Source: a virus. From it: a DNA stretch of 64,000 nucleotides. Both the position numbers and the translations under genes were made by a program. The stretch covers positions 1-64,000 of the IMG/VR virus record IMGVR_UViG_3300045020_000106; one strand, given 5' to 3'. Under the pieces are notes generated by a model. It was given only the letters and a program-made list of their open reading frames with translations. It did no database searches and had not been told where the DNA came from. This document shows, one piece after another, positions 22,166 to 64,000 of this stretch (position 1 is the stretch's first letter; each line of letters begins with the position of its first letter).

Positions 22166-23860
22166 ATGCCGAAACAAACCCTAAGCTCGAACGATGCCCG
22201 CTCTGCCCTCCTCCGCGGCATCAATGCAGTCGCGGACCCGGTAAAGACCACACTGGGTCCGCGCGGCCGCAACGTGATGCTGGAAGATGTCATCCAGCCC
22301 AAATCGACGCGAGATGGAGTCACAGTCGCAAAGTTCGCGTCGAGTCTTGCCGACCCATTCGAGAACATGGGAGCACTGCTGGCCCGGGAAGTTGCGGACG
22401 CGGCTGTCGTGGAAGCTGGCGACGGGACCACTACGGCCACAGTGATCTTTCAAGCCATTGTCACGGCGGGAATGAAAGCCATCCAGGAAGGCGCGGAACC
22501 CCTGCAATTGGCCGATGGGATTCGTGCGGCGGCCGAGGCGTGCGCCAAATCTGTAGAGCAAATGGCGACCCCTGCCACAGATGAGTTGGTCCAGCAATGC
22601 GCCATCATCTCAACGCATGGCGATGTTGAGTTGGGATCGATTATCGCGAAGGCAACCTGCCGAGTAGGCGCAACTGGCGTCCTGGAACTTCAAGAATCAC
22701 GCGATGAGTCGACCACGATCGAGCATCTTGAGGGATTCTACTTTGAACGTGGCTGGCGTGGGCCGAATGGATCGAACCACTTCTTTGTGAATGACAAGTC
22801 TGGGCAGAAGTGCGTCTTGAAGAACCCGTTTATTCTAATCTCCGAGCGTGTCATCGTCGGTGGGGCGCGCGGCATTGCCGGGGACCACCTGTGGAATATC
22901 CTCGAAGCCTGTGTGAAAGCTCGGCGCCCACTGCTGATCATTGCTGACGACTTGATTGGGGATGCCTACAACCTGTTCACGGCTAATATCACTGCCGGCG
23001 GATTGGCGGGGATTGGCGGATGCTTCGTGAAACTGCCAGGGTTCGGTGATCATCGCATGGAGGCGATCAAGGATCTGGCGATCGCCGTGGGAGCCAGACG
23101 GGTTCATTCGATGGCGTCGACGCGTGGGGACGATGTTCTATCGTCGTTCAGCTTGGACGACCTGGGAAATTGCAAACAAGCCGTTGTTTCACCCATGCGC
23201 ACGGTTCTGATCGAAGGCGCCGCGTCCGGCAATGCTCTTGCAAACCGCATTGCGCAATTATCCAAACAGCAGTTTGACGCCGCACATCCCATGGAGAAAG
23301 AACAACTTGAGCATCGCATCGCTCGTTTAACGGGAGGCGTCGCGGTATTGCGCGTGGGCGGGTATTCCGAGCCGGCCATGCTGGAAAAGAAGGCTCTGGC
23401 GGAAGATGCGATTCATGCCTGCCGTGGCGCGTTGCAGGAGGGAGTAGTAGCAGGTGGAGGGGTGGCGCTGTTGAGAGCGGCAAAAGATTGCGATGGAGAA
23501 CTGTGGGGAAGGACGGATATAACCGACGTTAGCTATTACACATTGGGACAGGCGTTACTGCTAAATGGCATCCAGGAGCCCGCCAAGCAAATCATGCGAA
23601 ACGCCGGGAAGAACGAGGAAACCATCGCCTCGGTGATCTTAGCTGCAATAAACCAGCCCAATCGGACACACGGCTACAATTCCGCAACTGGTGAATTTGG
23701 CGACCTGATGAGAATGGGCATCGTCGACCCCTGCAAAGTCGTCACAACCGCACTACGAAAAGCCGCATCCGTGGCAGCTCTTACCCTGACAACCGAGGTT
23801 CTGATCACGGAGATTCCGCAGCCCAAGAATCAGGCGCCTATGCCTCAGCCGATGTACTGA
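22166..23860 (+). CDS. groEL: GroEL-type group I chaperonin
   Basis: 564 aa, full length for GroEL. Visible signatures: TLGPRGRNVM, RDGVTVAK, EAGDGTTTATV (nucleotide phosphate site, catalytic Asp), PGFGDHRMEAIKDLAI (apical/intermediate), AEDAIHACRGA with the ATPase Asp, and EGVVAGGGVALLRA. The usual Gly-Gly-Met tail is replaced by a Pro/Gln-rich end. It forms double rings with GroES to fold proteins. Phage versions are known from several giant and podo/myophages and are thought to fold capsid or other large virion proteins. Sequence drift in the apical domain suggests an independent phage lineage. Confidence 0.95.
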   Translation: MPKQTLSSNDARSALLRGINAVADPVKTTLGPRGRNVMLEDVIQPKSTRDGVTVAKFASSLADPFENMGALLAREVADAAVVEAGDGTTTATVIFQAIVTAGMKAIQEGAEPLQLADGIRAAAEACAKSVEQMATPATDELVQQCAIISTHGDVELGSIIAKATCRVGATGVLELQESRDESTTIEHLEGFYFERGWRGPNGSNHFFVNDKSGQKCVLKNPFILISERVIVGGARGIAGDHLWNILEACVKARRPLLIIADDLIGDAYNLFTANITAGGLAGIGGCFVKLPGFGDHRMEAIKDLAIAVGARRVHSMASTRGDDVLSSFSLDDLGNCKQAVVSPMRTVLIEGAASGNALANRIAQLSKQQFDAAHPMEKEQLEHRIARLTGGVAVLRVGGYSEPAMLEKKALAEDAIHACRGALQEGVVAGGGVALLRAAKDCDGELWGRTDITDVSYYTLGQALLLNGIQEPAKQIMRNAGKNEETIASVILAAINQPNRTHGYNSATGEFGDLMRMGIVDPCKVVTTALRKAASVAALTLTTEVLITEIPQPKNQAPMPQPMY

Positions 23861-47597: not shown

Positions 47598-47614
47598 ATT
47601 AGATGAGGTTGCCT

Positions 47615-48262
47615 ATGTGGGATTCGGAAGACGTTAAACAGTTGTGGCAAAACCCGGAGTACAGGAAGAAGCAAGTAGAAGTTGATAAAGAAAGAAAACG
47701 CAAAGCTTCAATTGCATTAAAGAAGCACTGGGCTGATCCAGAGAATCGTGCACGTCGTATAGCGGTGATGACATCTCCACATGTACAACGTAGACAAGCT
47801 GCTGCGATGGCGATCCGTTCAAAGGAGCTATGGAAAGATCCGACGTACCGAGCCGCGCAGGGCGCTCACCGTTCGGCATTCGCCAAAACAAGAAGTGGGA
47901 TAACGGCGCCAGGATTCAAGCACGGTCTGTCGCGCACGCCTGAATACCGTGCTTATCATCAAGCCAAGGCGCGGTGTACCAAGATAGATCACCAACATTA
48001 TTCCGAGTACGGCATGCGCGGTATCAAGTTCCTTTTTGCCTCTTTCGAGCAGTTTATTGCTCACATAGGTATGCGACCATCCGCAAAGCATTCGCTCGAC
48101 AGAATCAACAACGACGGACATTACGAAATTGGTAATGTCGCTTGGCGGACGGCGACCGAGCAAGTTATCAATCGCCGAAAAGCGAATAGCAACTGCCGTG
48201 CATGCGGCAAGCTTCTATCGTGTTCCTGTATGGAACCAGAATACGGCTTATCGGCCTGCTGA
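47615..48262 (+). CDS. HNH homing endonuclease (free-standing)
   Basis: 215 aa; the start at 47615 follows GATGAGG. The N-terminal basic repeats (EYRKKQ..., ALKKHWADPENRARRIAV, RSKELWKDPTYR) are NUMOD-like DNA-binding motifs found in homing nucleases. The core AYHQAKARCTKIDHQHYSEY, then HSLDRINNDGHYEIGNVAWR, is the H-x-x-D-R-I-x-N-D-G-H-Y-x-x-G-N-x-R/W-W signature of an HNH subgroup. A C-terminal C-x2-C...C-x-C zinc site follows. It is inserted between the capsid gene and the terminator that probably once closed the capsid operon. The closest intact capsid allele is its likely target. Confidence 0.85.
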   Translation: MWDSEDVKQLWQNPEYRKKQVEVDKERKRKASIALKKHWADPENRARRIAVMTSPHVQRRQAAAMAIRSKELWKDPTYRAAQGAHRSAFAKTRSGITAPGFKHGLSRTPEYRAYHQAKARCTKIDHQHYSEYGMRGIKFLFASFEQFIAHIGMRPSAKHSLDRINNDGHYEIGNVAWRTATEQVINRRKANSNCRACGKLLSCSCMEPEYGLSAC

Positions 48263-51570: not shown

Positions 51571-54500
51571 GTGCTCTGGTTTGGAAGGCCAGTCCCACAG
51601 AACAGGATGCTCGGGGAAGTGTGTCAAGACGACCCCACCAATCTTCCTGTTGGGCTGGCGGCTCTATGTCAAGAGATCGAATTCACCCGTGACTCAGGCG
51701 GGCCGACGTGTGCCACGACACGCGCCGGAGTCAATCTCGCCATGCAGGGCACCGACCCCGGTGCGGCCGTCACAGGCTTGGACGGCTTTCTATACTCCCC
51801 GATAAACGCCACAGATCCCTTCTTTCAAATGCCACTGATTTATCAGCCGACCGTAGGCTCGGAATATGAATCTCCGGTCGGCACCGGCAGAATGGTGAAC
51901 TTCCCACAAACCAACTTCTCGGAGATGACCAGCGCAGAGTTGGAAGGCACTCTTGTTCATGCGATTCGTGCGGTAGCAGGGAACCAGGTATTCACCGCTT
52001 ACAGCGACTTAAATGTTCCAGTAAGTGGGCTGTCTACTATGGACCCCAAGGCGAAGACGTTGAACCCATTCGGCATTAAACCTTTCGGGTTTTATTGGCA
52101 GGCGAACCTACCCGTCCTGCAAGGAGAAATCTGCTGTCCTCCCACTCCTGCCAGTGGGAATGGTCATACTTATCAGGCGCAAAACTCAGGAACCACCGGA
52201 GCTACTGCTCCCGCCTTCCCGACCGGCGACGGCGCGACGGTCGACGACAATGGGATCATCTGGCAAGAACAGACGATAGTCATTGCCAATCGCCTACCTC
52301 CTCCCGCTTCGCCAGTCATAGCGGCGGAAGGCGCGGGCAGCGGACTTCCTGCCAATAAAGACGTTTACGTCGTCATCACGTTGGTAAATGCGCAGGGCGA
52401 ATCTCTGGCTTCTGTTCCTGTATTCGCGACGACAGTCCTCAATCCATCTATAGTTGCAGTCCTGATTCCGTCGTTAGCCTCCATGATGCGATGGATTCAA
52501 AATCTTCCCTCGCAGTATGTTCCTACCACAGCGAATGTGTATGCGGCGATTGTGGCGCATGGCAGCGCCGCACCTCCGCTCTCCTCGTACTTATTCATCA
52601 ATTCGGCTGCGCTTGGCGGCGGAGTCAATATTGCCGCAGCGGGATCTGGGAATGCTCCGCCAACCTTCAACAGCGCCCGTGTAACTCCTGGACAGTTGCC
52701 CACTCCGACCACGTCCCCGGACATTCAACGGGTTCCTGCCGGAAGTCTTGTGCCGCCTCCGGGAGCGCCAAGTCTCACCGAAGTGCCGGGTGCAGGATCG
52801 ACTCTGGCCGGTGGGTATTACGTTACCTTGACTTTGGTGAATGCAGCCGGTCAAACCAGCATCGGTGGAATAAGTTACATCGTCATCGCCTCTGGGAGCG
52901 CGATTCAAGTGAATCTCGCCAGCTCCTACGGACCTTCGGTAACAGGAGTGAATGTGTGGTTTGTTGGGGCGGGCGGCGGGCCGACGACCTATCTAGCGAA
53001 TGCTTCCCCGGAAGCGCTCGGATCAAGCCCGCAATTTATTGCTCTGGGAATTGCGACTGCACTTCCACCGAATACAGCCGCGCTTCCCTCTGGAGGATTT
53101 ACAGCCGGCCGCGATGTCTACGTAGCACAGACCTTCAAGAATGCCAACGGCGAAACACCGCTTGGACCCACGGCGAATGCGATCATCAACACCAACGCCA
53201 ACGATGCCGTATTCGTGCAGGTGCAAACCCCCACGGGACCGGACAACGAGCAACTCTACAGCATCACGCAGGTAGGCATTTACGAAGCGGACGTGCCCAC
53301 AGGCTCACCGGCACCGCCCCCATCTGCCTTTGCGCTTGTTGGATATTTCAACAACCTGGCAACACCGTTTATTTTGGATAGCGCCAGCGGTCCCAATCCT
53401 CCGATCACCAACGGGACAGGTCCGGGCGGAGCCATTGCCGCGGATACGACGACAGGTGGACCGAATGGAACGCAAGGCATGCGTTACGCCGCCTGCATGT
53501 GGATGAACCAGATTGAGACAGTCTCAGGGTTCACCTTGGCGAGCGTCGTCTCAACCATCATCGATGAAGGTGGATGGGAGATTGGAGTCTTCAATCTTCC
53601 CATAGGGATGCCGAACGTTATTGCGCGCATTGTCGCGTTAACCGTTGCTGACGGTGTGCAGGCAGGTCCATTCAACTGGATTGGATTGGTCGACATCGAT
53701 GTTCCCGCCCAAAATATCGTCTACCCACAGCAAACCCTTGTGGATCAGGTTGAGCAAAGCGCCACAGTATTTCTGGATAACACAACCACGCAAGGCACAT
53801 TCAACTTTACCGACACTTTCCTGCTCTCGGCGAATAACGTCGATGACCGACTGAGAATCACAATTCCACCGCAGGGCGTGCGCGTCGATTACCTCGAAGG
53901 CCTGGGTAGACTGGCGATCTCAGGCGTCCCCGGATTAAACAGCGGAGTTTATATCAGCTTAGGTGGGGAGGACTTCGAGAGCTTCTATGGGGATACAAGT
54001 CCAGTCCCAATTTCCAGTGCGGGCGATCGGTGTTTTGGAATCACCGACCGATATAAAGGAATTCCCTTTGTTCTGATGGCCTCGGGAGGATTTACGCTCA
54101 GTCCCAATACCGGAGATCCTTCGAGTTGGTCCCCACTTCGCCGTTGGGGAGGAATCGATCAGGCGCAGCAGTTAGGGCCATGCGGTTTTCGGGCATGGTC
54201 GGCGTGCGGCAAATTCATCATCTTCGCCCATCGTACTGGCCTTTATAAGTACGACATGGCCGACCCTGACATGATGTCGAAAGAAGTTCCCAAGCGGTGG
54301 GCGCAAATCAACTGGGCGGCCGCGGAAACCATTTGCGTCACGATTGATGAAGATACCCACACCGTGCGCGTTTTGGTTCCGACAGGAGAGAGTACAGTCC
54401 CGAACGCGGAATACGTTCTCAGTTACATTGAAGGCTGGAATAATCCGATCCACTTTTCCACCTTCTCAGGCAAAGAAATCTCGATGGATGCCGCGCGGCG

Positions 54501-59385: not shown

Positions 59386-62300
59386 ATGCCCACCGTTGCC
59401 GAGCCGGACACTACCGATGAATCCGTCAGCGTCCGGAGTGCGCCTCCGTCTGGATTTACGGAGTCCCTATCAGCATCTGAGACCGGCGACCGCAGCAAAC
59501 CTCCCACTGGCTTCAGTGAAGTCCACGATGCCTCCGCTCCGCCTCCAGGCTTTACCGAAGATGTAGGGGCGCAACAGAACGTCGATCAGGCGCTCGCAGG
59601 CGCACCCAAGCCACAGGTAAACATGCAACCCGTGGCTGTGACATCGGGCCGTCCCGTGGGTAGTCCCGCAGCTGTGGCACCCGCTCCCGGAACGGAACTG
59701 GAGCATTTTGGTGCGCTCGTGCCGCAAGCCGCTGTCCCGGCCCTGCAGTCCATTCAGACACATGTCAATGAGCCTCTGAATAAAGCCGCGCAGGCTGGCG
59801 CGGAATTTGGCAAAGAGGTTGGTCAAGAAGCCGTCACCGGAGCGACGATTCTTTCGCACCCCGCAGAATCGCTCAGCGCGGCCCTGTCATCGCCTTACGG
59901 ACCAAAGCCAGCCACAGAAACGCCAGAGCAGACCGCCCAGCGCGAGCACCCGGTAGCAATGGTAATTGCGAGTGGCGTGGGTGAAGCAGCTGGCGGCGCT
60001 GCGGCCGATCCGCGCAACTGGCCCTTCTTTGCTTCTGGCGGAGCCCGCCCGGTCCTGCAGAAAATCATCAGCTTAGGGTTCAGCGGCATGATGGCCAAAG
60101 ATGCCACGGACGCCGCTGTCGACCTGCACGCCAATTGGGATAAATACACACCACAGCAACGTGCGGAGATTGCGGCGAAGGGCGGCATTTCCGGCGTGAT
60201 GGCGGCGATGGGTGCCTATCACGCGGCCACATCCAAGCTTCCGCCTCCAGCCCCACTCCGCCCCGAGCCGGAAAGCCTTACGGCGCTTCATAACGAAGCG
60301 CGAGACATCGTCAACTCGGCTGGACTGGAATATCCCTACAACCCGACGCCGGAAGATCTGAAAACAAGCTATCGCCAATTCCAGGCGCGTGCCGCGAACG
60401 CCGCGGAAGCCGATCAGCCAGCGATGAAGGAAAAGGCCAATCGACTCCAGGAAATCTATGACAAGTTGAGCAAGGGAGCGCCAACCGAGAAGCCAGTTCA
60501 TCACACATCGAACGACGTTAAGGCTCTGCGAGAAAGCGCCGAAGCACAATCCGGCAAGATTGGCGATGCCGTCGCGAAAGCCGCGGAACCCGTAGAGGGC
60601 GCAAAAGTCGAAGCCGTCCGCGATGCGAAAGACTCCGACCGGATCGAAGATAAAGCCAAACGGCAGAACGTGCAACCCTCACAGATCGGGGATATTGCCG
60701 GCGCCAAGGTCTCGGTCCCAGATCAGGAAGCGGCGAATGAAGTCCTGAAAAATCTGCACCAAGAAATGCCGGTGGAATCGGCAAATGGGACGGTTACGGG
60801 TGAGCCGCAGAATAACGCCGTGCGGCAGACGCAGGCCATTGTCGACACCGAGGCACCACCAGAGGAGCCGATAAAGCATGCTGAGATCATGTTGCAGACC
60901 CCAGAGATGCACGCCGCAACCGATCGCACCCACGACCAATATCGCGAGGCGCAAGAACTTCGTGCTCAGGGTAAAGAAGCCGAAGCCCAGGCCATCGAGT
61001 CTGAAATTGCAAAGACACACGAAGCGGCAGAGCAAGCCGCTAGATCACGCCAAGGAGAATCCGATGCCCTTTCGCAGCGAGGCCCAGCAACGGTTCATGG
61101 AGGCGCACAAAAAGAAAATGGCGCGTCAGGGCGTGAACCTGAAAGAGTGGGAGCAGGCAACGGACTTCAAGAAACTCCCACCCCGAGCGCCCAAGCCGCC
61201 GAAAAAGAAAAGCTCCCCGACCACCTAGGAGATAAACGCGTTCAGGTGAAAGACGCGAAAACCGGGGAATGGAAAGATGGAACGGTAATCGCCGATGTCA
61301 TGCGCTCCGGGCCGACGACGCGCGGCGAAGCAACCCTACGAAAACTTCGCGGGCAATTTGATGATGGTGGAAGATTCGATGTAGGCCCAGAGAGTATCCG
61401 CCTTCCCCAAAGTAAGCGGGTAGGCGTCGACTTCGATGGAACGCTGGTCAAAGAAAATGCCGACGGTTCAATAGGCGAACCAATCCCAGAGCGTATTGCC
61501 AGTCTGAAGCAAAGAATTGCGGCAGGGGATGATGTCATCATCGAAAGCCACAGAGCAAAAGACCCGCAGCAAATCGCGAATATTCAAGAGGTACTGATCT
61601 CCCAAGGCCTTCCAAGGCTCCCCGTCACTGCAAAGAAAACAGCCGCCGGAGAATTGATTGACGACAAGCAGGGGAAGACACCGGGAGTCGATGTCGACCG
61701 TGTAGCCACAAATGCGAATGCTCCACTCCCAGATAAACCCTTTGCCCTCTCAGAGCATGAAAAAGAACTCTCCAAACCCTATGGTCCTCCCAAAGCAGAT
61801 TTTGGAGGAAGAGTCCCGGATGAATCGTTAGGACTCAATCCGAATCCGGCAGAAGATTTCGGCAACAAAGCCCGCGCCGAAGTGGAGCGGAGAATGGGCG
61901 GAGCCTTACCACGAGGAGCCACAGAGCGGCGCGTAGAACCCCAGACCGACGATGAGAAACTAAAAGCCGCTTTCGCCGGATCACGTAGTGTAGGGAACAA
62001 AGAAGGGGGCTTATTCACTCAAGCAAAGTCTGAGTTATTCCCTGGTAAGCGGGAGTTATCCAATGACGAAATTGCGAAAGTTGAGACGCGCGCGCGCGAA
62101 CTCAGCTCACAAAAGACAGCAACGTCTGAAAAGACGAGTCAACCTGTGGGAGGTTCTGATGCTGGAAAAGAGCGTGGGAGTCCAGCCAAGGAAACGCGCA
62201 AAGAAGTAGCTCCCGGCAAAGTCGGAGAGATGAAAGTATCCGACCTTCGAGTCGCACCGAATAAGTTCCAGTATAAGTTAGGCACGGATGCCGCTGGCAC

Positions 62301-64000
62301 TTCCACTCTTCTCAAGGAAGCCAGGGCGTTTAATCCCGATCTCGCAGGGACAATATCGGTATGGAAAGACCCATCCGACGGCAAGACCTATGTCGTGAAC
62401 GGCCACCATCGCTATGAGCTGGCAGTTCGTAAAGGACAAGATGAAATCGCCGTAAGGCATGTCGTTGCCGATGACGCGGAAACTGCGCGAGCGATTGGAG
62501 CGATGCAGAATATCGCCGAAGGCCGCGGCACTGCGGTGGATGCTGCAAAGTTCTTACGCGATTCCGGCATGACACTCGCAGACTTTCAGGCAAAGGGTAT
62601 TTCATTGGGCGAGGCCACGGCGGCGAAAGGCCTGGCGCTCGCCAATCTTGACGATTCGCTTTTCAATAAAGTAGTACAGGGCGATCTGCGCGAAGGCCGC
62701 GCGGTCGCCATCGGTGAAGCGACGAAAGACCCGGCAGAGCAGAAAGCTATTCTCTCGCTGGTGGAAAAGAAAGAATCGCGAGGCACAAGAGTCAGCGACG
62801 ACACGCTCTCGGAACTCATTCGCTTGGTCAAGGGAAGCGAACAGACTACCGAGACCACGCAAAACCTATTCGGAACGCAGGAGATTAGTCGCTCGCTGGC
62901 ACTGGAGAAAGCAGAAATATCCGCGCACATCAAGCAGCAATTGGCAAAGGATAAGAAACTGTTCGGCTTTGTCGCCAAGGCGGATCGCGCAACCGAGTTG
63001 GAACGCGGCGGCAACAAGATTGATGTAGGCAAATCGAAGGAAATTTCTACTGGCGCGGCTCAGGCCGAAGAGGTTTATAATAAGCTTAGTGAGCGCGGAG
63101 GTCCGATTGCATCCATCCTCGACGAAAGCGCCAGAAAACTCGCAGAGGGTGACAGCCCCGCGACCGTTAAATCGGAAGCCTACACCCGCGTCCGCTCCGA
63201 AATATCCAAAACTCTCGGGCCACCAGAAGGAACAAGTGCTGGACGATCTGAAGAAGCACGCGAAGAAAACCTAGAACCTACCCTCCCCGGCATGGAGCAC
63301 GTTCCCACCGAACGCGCCGAAGCCAACGCGGAGCATCAAGGCAAAGAACTCACCGAAAAACTCACTGAGCCGCCCAAGTCCATCGAAGCCAAAGCGGGCG
63401 AGATTGAGCAAAAATCCCCGCTATTCCGCGACACGGAAGCCAACCCACAGAAAGGCTTATTCGGCTCCGATCTTCTCTCCGGGGAATCTGGCAGCTTTGA
63501 ACCAGGCAAGGTAGGCGAAGCGGCAAAGGCAGTCGGCGATTATATCGGTGGCGTCCGTCACAGCACAGAGATCGCTCGTGATCTTCAGCGCAGCCTTGAA
63601 ACCTTAGATACACAAAAACAGGCGGACATCCTCGAAGGCATCAACGTGATGAAGGTAATGAAGTCGGCAGGATTAAAGCATGCCGACGATGAAGCCATCT
63701 ACCATCACCTCGAAGATCCGAATGCCAAGCTTTCAGACGATCAGCAGAAGTGGCTCGACGATATCGTTACGCCGCTCCAGAAAATGAACACGGAGTTTTA
63801 TGAGGAATTAAAAAAGGGCGGGGTGCCCATCGAGAACTATGTACATCGAGTCGTGCAGGGGAAGGGCGGGGTTCTCGACCGCATTGCGCAAGGGGCGAAG
63901 GCAATGGGCTCACGCGCAACCCTCTCGAAATCCGCGCCGCAAACCAAGCAGCGTACCTATATGGCGCTGGATAATGACAAAGGTGAACGCCAGGTAGTCT
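59386..64000 (+). CDS. Giant polyvalent-type injected protein (3' end beyond window)
   Basis: Open for 1538 codons to the window edge, starting MPTVAEPDTTDESVSVRSAP 3 nt after the previous stop. In order: a disordered, Ala/Pro/Thr-rich N-terminus with two hydrophobic Gly/Ala stretches; coiled coils (residues 290-600); a disordered stretch (560-615) where another gene is nested. An HAD-like motif VGVDFDGTLVKE (Asp682/Asp684) comes next. Then a DdrB/ParB-like domain (residues about 945-1100) with YVVNGHHRYELAV (NGHHR from residue 1005) and NIAEGRGTAVDAAKFL, and finally a long helical region. Giant multi-domain proteins with ParB-like cores are called polyvalent proteins. They are thought to be injected with phage DNA to counter host defences. 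Confidence 0.75.
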   Translation, partial: MPTVAEPDTTDESVSVRSAPPSGFTESLSASETGDRSKPPTGFSEVHDASAPPPGFTEDVGAQQNVDQALAGAPKPQVNMQPVAVTSGRPVGSPAAVAPAPGTELEHFGALVPQAAVPALQSIQTHVNEPLNKAAQAGAEFGKEVGQEAVTGATILSHPAESLSAALSSPYGPKPATETPEQTAQREHPVAMVIASGVGEAAGGAAADPRNWPFFASGGARPVLQKIISLGFSGMMAKDATDAAVDLHANWDKYTPQQRAEIAAKGGISGVMAAMGAYHAATSKLPPPAPLRPEPESLTALHNEARDIVNSAGLEYPYNPTPEDLKTSYRQFQARAANAAEADQPAMKEKANRLQEIYDKLSKGAPTEKPVHHTSNDVKALRESAEAQSGKIGDAVAKAAEPVEGAKVEAVRDAKDSDRIEDKAKRQNVQPSQIGDIAGAKVSVPDQEAANEVLKNLHQEMPVESANGTVTGEPQNNAVRQTQAIVDTEAPPEEPIKHAEIMLQTPEMHAATDRTHDQYREAQELRAQGKEAEAQAIESEIAKTHEAAEQAARSRQGESDALSQRGPATVHGGAQKENGASGREPERVGAGNGLQETPTPSAQAAEKEKLPDHLGDKRVQVKDAKTGEWKDGTVIADVMRSGPTTRGEATLRKLRGQFDDGGRFDVGPESIRLPQSKRVGVDFDGTLVKENADGSIGEPIPERIASLKQRIAAGDDVIIESHRAKDPQQIANIQEVLISQGLPRLPVTAKKTAAGELIDDKQGKTPGVDVDRVATNANAPLPDKPFALSEHEKELSKPYGPPKADFGGRVPDESLGLNPNPAEDFGNKARAEVERRMGGALPRGATERRVEPQTDDEKLKAAFAGSRSVGNKEGGLFTQAKSELFPGKRELSNDEIAKVETRARELSSQKTATSEKTSQPVGGSDAGKERGSPAKETRKEVAPGKVGEMKVSDLRVAPNKFQYKLGTDAAGTSTLLKEARAFNPDLAGTISVWKDPSDGKTYVVNGHHRYELAVRKGQDEIAVRHVVADDAETARAIGAMQNIAEGRGTAVDAAKFLRDSGMTLADFQAKGISLGEATAAKGLALANLDDSLFNKVVQGDLREGRAVAIGEATKDPAEQKAILSLVEKKESRGTRVSDDTLSELIRLVKGSEQTTETTQNLFGTQEISRSLALEKAEISAHIKQQLAKDKKLFGFVAKADRATELERGGNKIDVGKSKEISTGAAQAEEVYNKLSERGGPIASILDESARKLAEGDSPATVKSEAYTRVRSEISKTLGPPEGTSAGRSEEAREENLEPTLPGMEHVPTERAEANAEHQGKELTEKLTEPPKSIEAKAGEIEQKSPLFRDTEANPQKGLFGSDLLSGESGSFEPGKVGEAAKAVGDYIGGVRHSTEIARDLQRSLETLDTQKQADILEGINVMKVMKSAGLKHADDEAIYHHLEDPNAKLSDDQQKWLDDIVTPLQKMNTEFYEELKKGGVPIENYVHRVVQGKGGVLDRIAQGAKAMGSRATLSKSAPQTKQRTYMALDNDKGERQVV
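61064..61228 (+). CDS. Nested small gene, frame +1 inside the giant ORF
   Basis: 54 aa, MPFRSEAQQRFMEAHKKKMA then ARQGVNLKEWEQATDFKKLP, Lys/Pro-rich end. The ATG is preceded by CCAAGGAGAATCCG, an excellent ribosome site at ideal spacing, inside a frame that also codes for the giant protein. The start P-F-[RK]-S-E-A-Q-[RQ]-R-[FY]-M is typical of a family of short basic phage/prophage proteins. The host frame here is disordered and tolerant of overlap. Two real overlapping genes is the most economical reading. Confidence 0.75.
   Translation: MPFRSEAQQRFMEAHKKKMARQGVNLKEWEQATDFKKLPPRAPKPPKKKSSPTT

Follow-up and report, generated by a model that had tools for sequence, protein, structure and literature searches.

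Near the end of the 64,000-nucleotide stretch analysed here (the window, which forms one part of a 70,286-base IMG/VR virus record), a gene of 54 codons lies wholly within a giant ORF, on the same strand but in another frame. Same-strand nested genes are in general well known; this one looks real and widely overlooked, judging by its relatives. We consider it probable that it is a genuine coding gene with independent initiation, probably with a role in packaging or head assembly, and that the linker of the giant protein overprinted an older small gene. As far as the homologous loci tell, the nesting is a recurrent one, found across unrelated giant genes of many distantly related phages and in the same frame throughout.

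The nested ORF and its giant host gene

The nested gene occupies positions 61,064–61,228 on the plus strand (ATG at 61,064, TAG at 61,226–61,228) in the +1 frame of the giant ORF, where the initial annotation had placed it, and encodes the product MPFRSEAQQRFMEAHKKKMARQGVNLKEWEQATDFKKLPPRAPKPPKKKSSPTT, which is basic, with a net charge of +9. The perfect ribosome site claimed for it is indeed present, an AAGGAG Shine-Dalgarno (SD) sequence at 61,052–61,057 on the same strand, 6 nt 5′ of the ATG. The ORF called mechanically in this frame opens at an ATG at 60,878 and has 116 aa, and homology starts exactly at 61,064. This second ATG, which has AGGAG upstream and opens that frame 62 codons ahead of the nested ATG, looks unused because substitutions upstream of 61,064 track the host frame. 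RNA structure near the nested start gave nothing above shuffles (z 0.4–1.3).

The giant host ORF, first described as a gene of more than 1,538 codons, runs on the plus strand from 59,386 through the window end at 64,000 to 65,871 of the record and in full encodes 2,161 aa. Its product is polyvalent-like, with several unrelated effector or enzymatic domains on one phage polypeptide. Upstream of the nest lies a RelA/SpoT-like domain (60,628–60,948, plus strand; aa 415–521), whose Pfam match is just under the curated cut-off in the window (E = 3.2e-5) and above it in the L003 homologue (3.4e-6). Downstream follow a phrog_1238 domain (61,393–61,698, plus strand; aa 670–771), which we take to be HAD-like from its DFDGTL motif, and a ParB-like segment (62,374–62,574, plus strand; aa 997–1,063) within a phrog_21 match (aa 930–1,252). 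The giant protein of L003 has a weak DnaJ-like match, and homologues elsewhere carry GGDEF or 2H/FtsK-gamma domains; several of these giant-protein matches fall under curated cut-offs. In size and in its RelA/SpoT-like, ParB-like and other swappable domains, the host ORF resembles the polyvalent proteins of Iyer et al. 2017 (PMC5512222); the portions of that paper available to us report RelA/SpoT domains in polyvalent proteins and hold no passage on genes nested in them. A search with the 5′ part of the giant ORF as query returned zero relatives, an outcome due to the patterns chosen. Elsewhere, the window contains a GroEL-like chaperonin gene (22,166–23,860; Pfam Cpn60_TCP1, 4.4e-48), GroEL/GroES genes being present in Elemovirus too, and, in an apparent structural region, an HNH endonuclease gene (47,603–48,262; phrog_3377, 1.5e-24).

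Over the nest, the host frame (61,064–61,225, plus strand) reads as a linker of disordered composition, and its initial description as low-complexity holds: 75% of its residues are disorder-promoting and 9% hydrophobic, versus 21% hydrophobic in the window part of the giant protein. In the comparison of the window with L003, the only constraint detected on this linker is that it stays open. When all nested members are pooled, the host frame over the nest is free of cysteine and slightly acidic, with 77% disorder-promoting residues, whereas 36% Lys/Arg and 3.7% Cys would result from the other alternative frame. The composition of the spacer may explain why one phase only is seen, although in many members this unused frame would be open by chance more often than the used one.

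In this GC-rich giant ORF, out-of-frame ORFs of at least 54 codons occur often, and 21% of synonymous-codon shuffles contain one or more that begin with ATG and bear AGGAG or GGAGG. The signal in a single genome is therefore weak, we rejected it as sole proof, and the case rests on comparison.

A family with nested and stand-alone members

The initial annotation had also seen a recurrent small phage protein pattern in the N-terminus of the product, and homologues bear this out, the first ones found being 43–73% identical and the loci about 90 overall; they either stand alone or share the nested arrangement and its frame. With the 54-aa product as query, 11 loci were obtained in IMG/VR; alignment scans added at least 69 further loci on viral contigs and at least 11 in bacterial or archaeal genome contigs, with a few contigs in both. 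The scans were pattern-based, and the nested and stand-alone counts given here cover the matches listed and are not population frequencies. Across the family, M1, P2, S5, A7, L38 and P39 are invariant and Q8 and W29 nearly so, the length is about 41–70 aa, and the window protein follows the family pattern MPxxSxAQ...W...LP. In four loci, the family forms the N-terminal part of longer in-frame proteins of 889, 451, 237 and 114 aa (L008:5,001–7,670, L041:4,001–5,356, L060 and L080, respectively), and the small domain therefore also occurs fused.

Pfam and NCBIfam searches of the small family gave no match. With PHROG 1375, a group of unknown function, 9/63 members match at E ≤ 0.01 (best 3.4e-6), and the window protein has no significant match to that profile. 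Sequence-profile and fold searches of the PDB and viral fold searches returned neither a relative of known function nor a solved relative. Against isolate phages, blastn of the region gave no match and tblastn of the 54-aa protein a chance-level match only; isolate-phage members were reached via other family members as queries. Elemovirus isolates (host Flavobacterium sp. BAL314) carry the gene within a “structural protein” gene of 11,085 bases, where it has no annotation; in isolate MT497067 the nested start lies at 53,581 on the plus strand, with a predicted Pro-started N-terminus MPFKSKAQMKAC...

At least 22 distinct full-length members are entirely enclosed by a long same-strand ORF, against at least 55 that are not. 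All 22 nested cases place the small gene in the +1 frame of the host ORF, and in the nested records tested, the window type included, it is present in one copy each. A 23rd nested member, L181, was found with the RelA/SpoT-like domain of the host as query, the nest itself not being used; it carries MPFVSQAQQGFMNAHKKQ... at the same place behind CAGGAGG and in the same frame. Five stand-alone copies (L018, L022, L025, L056 and L079) begin 2–13 bases past another ORF, mostly of more than 1,000 aa, and perhaps represent a state between tandem and nested.

Stops in the host frame distinguish the two groups, with none in the 22 nested copies and usually 2–8 in the 55 stand-alone ones. With random synonymous codons, the probability that the host frame is open is ≤0.002 for at least 15 nested members and 0.01–0.09 in five GC-rich ones, the window included. 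The Tyr-3 codon follows the same avoidance: it is TAC in all 15 nested members with Tyr, because TAT before AAR makes a host-frame stop, and it is divided between TAC (14) and TAT (14) in stand-alone members. These figures bear on the possibility that the giant ORF is discontinuous, two genes flanking a normal small gene with the intervening frame open by accident. Although the ORFs in L023, L031 and L033 start just 44–51 codons before the nest, in most members the nest lies deep within ORFs of 1,300–2,700 aa, and the host frame, open in every one of the 22 nested copies against low chance expectation in most, is conserved on both sides of the nest with a normal third-position bias. We regard accidental continuity as highly unlikely.

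Substitution patterns and initiation sites

Over the nest, substitutions concentrate at codon position 3 of the small frame, equivalent to host-frame position 1. In five non-overlapping pairs, the pooled counts at small-frame positions 1/2/3 are 39/31/78 (p = 3.9e-6), whereas the upstream flanks have the usual host third-position excess (90/69/209). Between the window and L003, identity over the nest is 72% in the nested frame and 32% in the host frame, the host proteins being 73% identical immediately before the nest and 55% immediately after it; the substitution rate at host position 3 is 0.21 in the nest versus 0.54–0.77 upstream. The host-frame identity of 32% equals the expectation (34 ± 5%) when constraint is limited to the small protein and to avoiding host stops, and in the pairs L004–L010 and L181–L004 it is somewhat above the no-constraint expectation. 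Among ten relatives of L035, variability at host position 3 drops from about 0.73–0.93 to 0.13 in codons 1–30 of the nest, with no variation at any of the six four-fold sites. Depletion of synonymous variation in relatives had been proposed initially as a check of the gene-in-gene interpretation; host synonymous-type variation is strongly reduced in both comparisons and, together with the homologues, supports that interpretation.

The phase flip, the collapse at position 3 and the avoidance of stops therefore argue that both frames are maintained. The small gene lies wholly inside the longer ORF with both frames open, the nested frame bears the mark of purifying selection, and the host frame is upheld by stop avoidance and conserved flanks; by these alignments, both frames are shown to be under selection. 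A chance frame, with a family similarity that is spurious or carried by the host sequence, is an extremely improbable reading, common as such ORFs are in this gene: substitutions track the nested and not the host frame, stand-alone homologues exist in other phages, host-frame stops are missing against expectation, and the host domain by itself sufficed to predict the nest of L181. In the relatives compared, the phase flip refutes it, and with the open-frame tests leads us to reject both a chance ORF and accidental continuity.

Initiation sites, as far as motifs in the leaders reveal them, are shown to be conserved among nested members. The window, L003, L004, L010, L024, L093, L053 and L181 have AGGAG or GGAGG at the distance expected of an SD, and Bacteroidota-like members have an A-rich leader in its place. 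Bacteroidota hosts use little SD, which the A-rich leader fits. In many nested members, an in-frame stop lies 1–8 codons upstream of the start.

These features weigh on another route, in which programmed ribosomal frameshifting would yield the small protein as the C-terminal portion of a shortened giant protein. In the window such a shift is sterically possible, the small frame being open for 62 codons upstream; however, conservation begins exactly at Met1, an SD precedes the start in all GC-rich members and the A-rich leader in the Bacteroidota-like ones, and stand-alone homologues likewise start with Met-Pro. Frameshifting from the giant frame is also made unlikely by the upstream in-frame stops. 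The signs of a programmed frameshift, lack of an own initiation site and fusion to the upstream host frame, were not found, and we give this route very little credence.

Genomic context, ancestry and comparison with known overlaps

Some homologous giant genes do without the nest. In L014 and L015, the RelA-like domain and the nest region are replaced by GGDEF or by FtsK-gamma plus 2H-phosphoesterase-like modules, and the small gene has zero copies in either record; in L184 and L185, the RelA-like domain is kept, the linker is different and the nest is absent. Within the giant protein, the nest region is therefore both dispensable and exchangeable, and the nest is not essential to all such phages. 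Aligned with the giant protein of the window, those of L014 and L015 have internal module swaps (RelA/SpoT-like, GGDEF, FtsK-gamma plus 2H phosphoesterase) between conserved ends.

Absence from some homologous giants, an open host frame and giant genes with unrelated flanks would also suit a mobile or homing cassette, in which translation of the “linker” preserves the target gene, as in out-of-frame HNH insertions (PMC11855218). The ShiLan-type HNH ORFs in phage methylases described there, the nearest published analogue that we found, are likewise out-of-frame phage ORFs over an open host frame. In contrast, the present product is of 54 aa and Pfam and PHROGs detect no nuclease domain in the hidden frame; no clean empty site was seen, the four homologues without the nest differing by replacement of whole modules; and stand-alone members reside in packaging operons. 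We regard a homing cassette as a very unlikely source of the arrangement.

Ten of the 16 stand-alone loci examined adjoin large terminase (TerL) or portal genes (L005, L012, L026, L032, L050, L059, L061, L064, L074 and L076), and one stand-alone copy adjoins a DNA polymerase gene. In the record of the window, TerL (66,596–68,197 of the record; phrog_979, E = 1.5e-30) begins 725 bp past the giant ORF, with one 233-aa gene between them. Among 15 nested viral records searched with phrog_979, TerL was found in three, and we therefore do not generalise TerL linkage of the nested state beyond the window type. AlphaFold predicts three short helices for the small protein (pLDDT 80, pTM 0.51). Because its stand-alone relatives mostly sit in the terminase–portal region, our best guess is that the small protein has a packaging or head-assembly role.

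In a 79-member tree, nested copies do not form one clade (AU p = 2.6e-76), and we rejected a single-clade origin by this test, which has 57 alignment columns only. At least seven changes between the nested and stand-alone states are forced by well-supported branches and 13 by parsimony, in a tree whose branches are long and whose bootstraps are unsettled. A phylogenetic rule takes whichever frame is spread more widely as the ancestral one (PMC8227390); it makes the small gene the older partner and the giant linker, in the +2 frame relative to it, the newcomer. The disordered linker of the giant protein therefore probably overprinted an older small gene. De novo +2 frames are reported to be more disordered (PMC8227390), and the newcomer linker here agrees. 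The alternative is an ancient nested origin followed by repeated escape to the stand-alone state.

Lambda-type Rz/Rz1 provides a familiar case of a small spanin gene embedded in the +1 frame of another phage gene. The present small gene shares that frame relation (cf. PMC6139136), but its product is predicted to be soluble, is highly basic and lacks any evident signal sequence, and its host gene encodes a giant multidomain protein. Internal same-strand overlaps such as phiX174 E in D and the tymovirus movement protein in the replicase (reviewed in PMC8227390) likewise place a gene wholly inside another, with both frames selected and one partner disordered. There, the nested gene is usually young and taxonomically restricted, whereas here it is the partner found more widely, and giant genes whose flanks are unrelated repeat the arrangement. 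A limited literature search found no description of this family inside giant genes of phages.

Translation of the small gene and its route of initiation are inferred, as are its role in packaging and the direction that overprinting took; we would arrange them as follows. Ribosomes would initiate independently at the AAGGAG/ATG site on late-region mRNA and yield a strongly basic, helical protein of 54 aa, which would probably act in packaging of the genome or in assembly of the head, for instance through binding to DNA or to the portal/terminase complex. Translation of the giant protein would run straight through the nest, which in that frame would encode a disordered spacer separating the RelA/SpoT-like domain from the HAD-like one. 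The linker of the giant gene would have overprinted the small gene, and the nested and stand-alone states would have interchanged several times, always with the same relative frame. Whether these cases make up a hidden class seems to us evenly balanced: an old packaging-module gene would have been engulfed repeatedly by polyvalent-protein linkers, in one phase, beneath a cysteine-free, disordered, neutral-to-acidic spacer, and the cassette would perhaps be exchanged as a linker-plus-gene module that ties small-protein to giant-protein production.

Fully nested genes of dsDNA phages are few and usually single finds, whereas here many phages share one nested gene, a sequenced Flavobacterium isolate collection among them, and it is annotated in none of the records examined. 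Because Elemovirus isolates carry the gene, its translation and presence in virions are directly testable. Conserved genes of this kind escape gene callers in which full overlaps are penalised, and the linkers of giant proteins are places to look for further hidden ones. The usual polarity of overprinting appears to be reversed, in that the nested gene looks older and the linker of the big protein looks new; the family would thereby offer replicate cases for the study of a de novo disordered linker coding over an existing gene.
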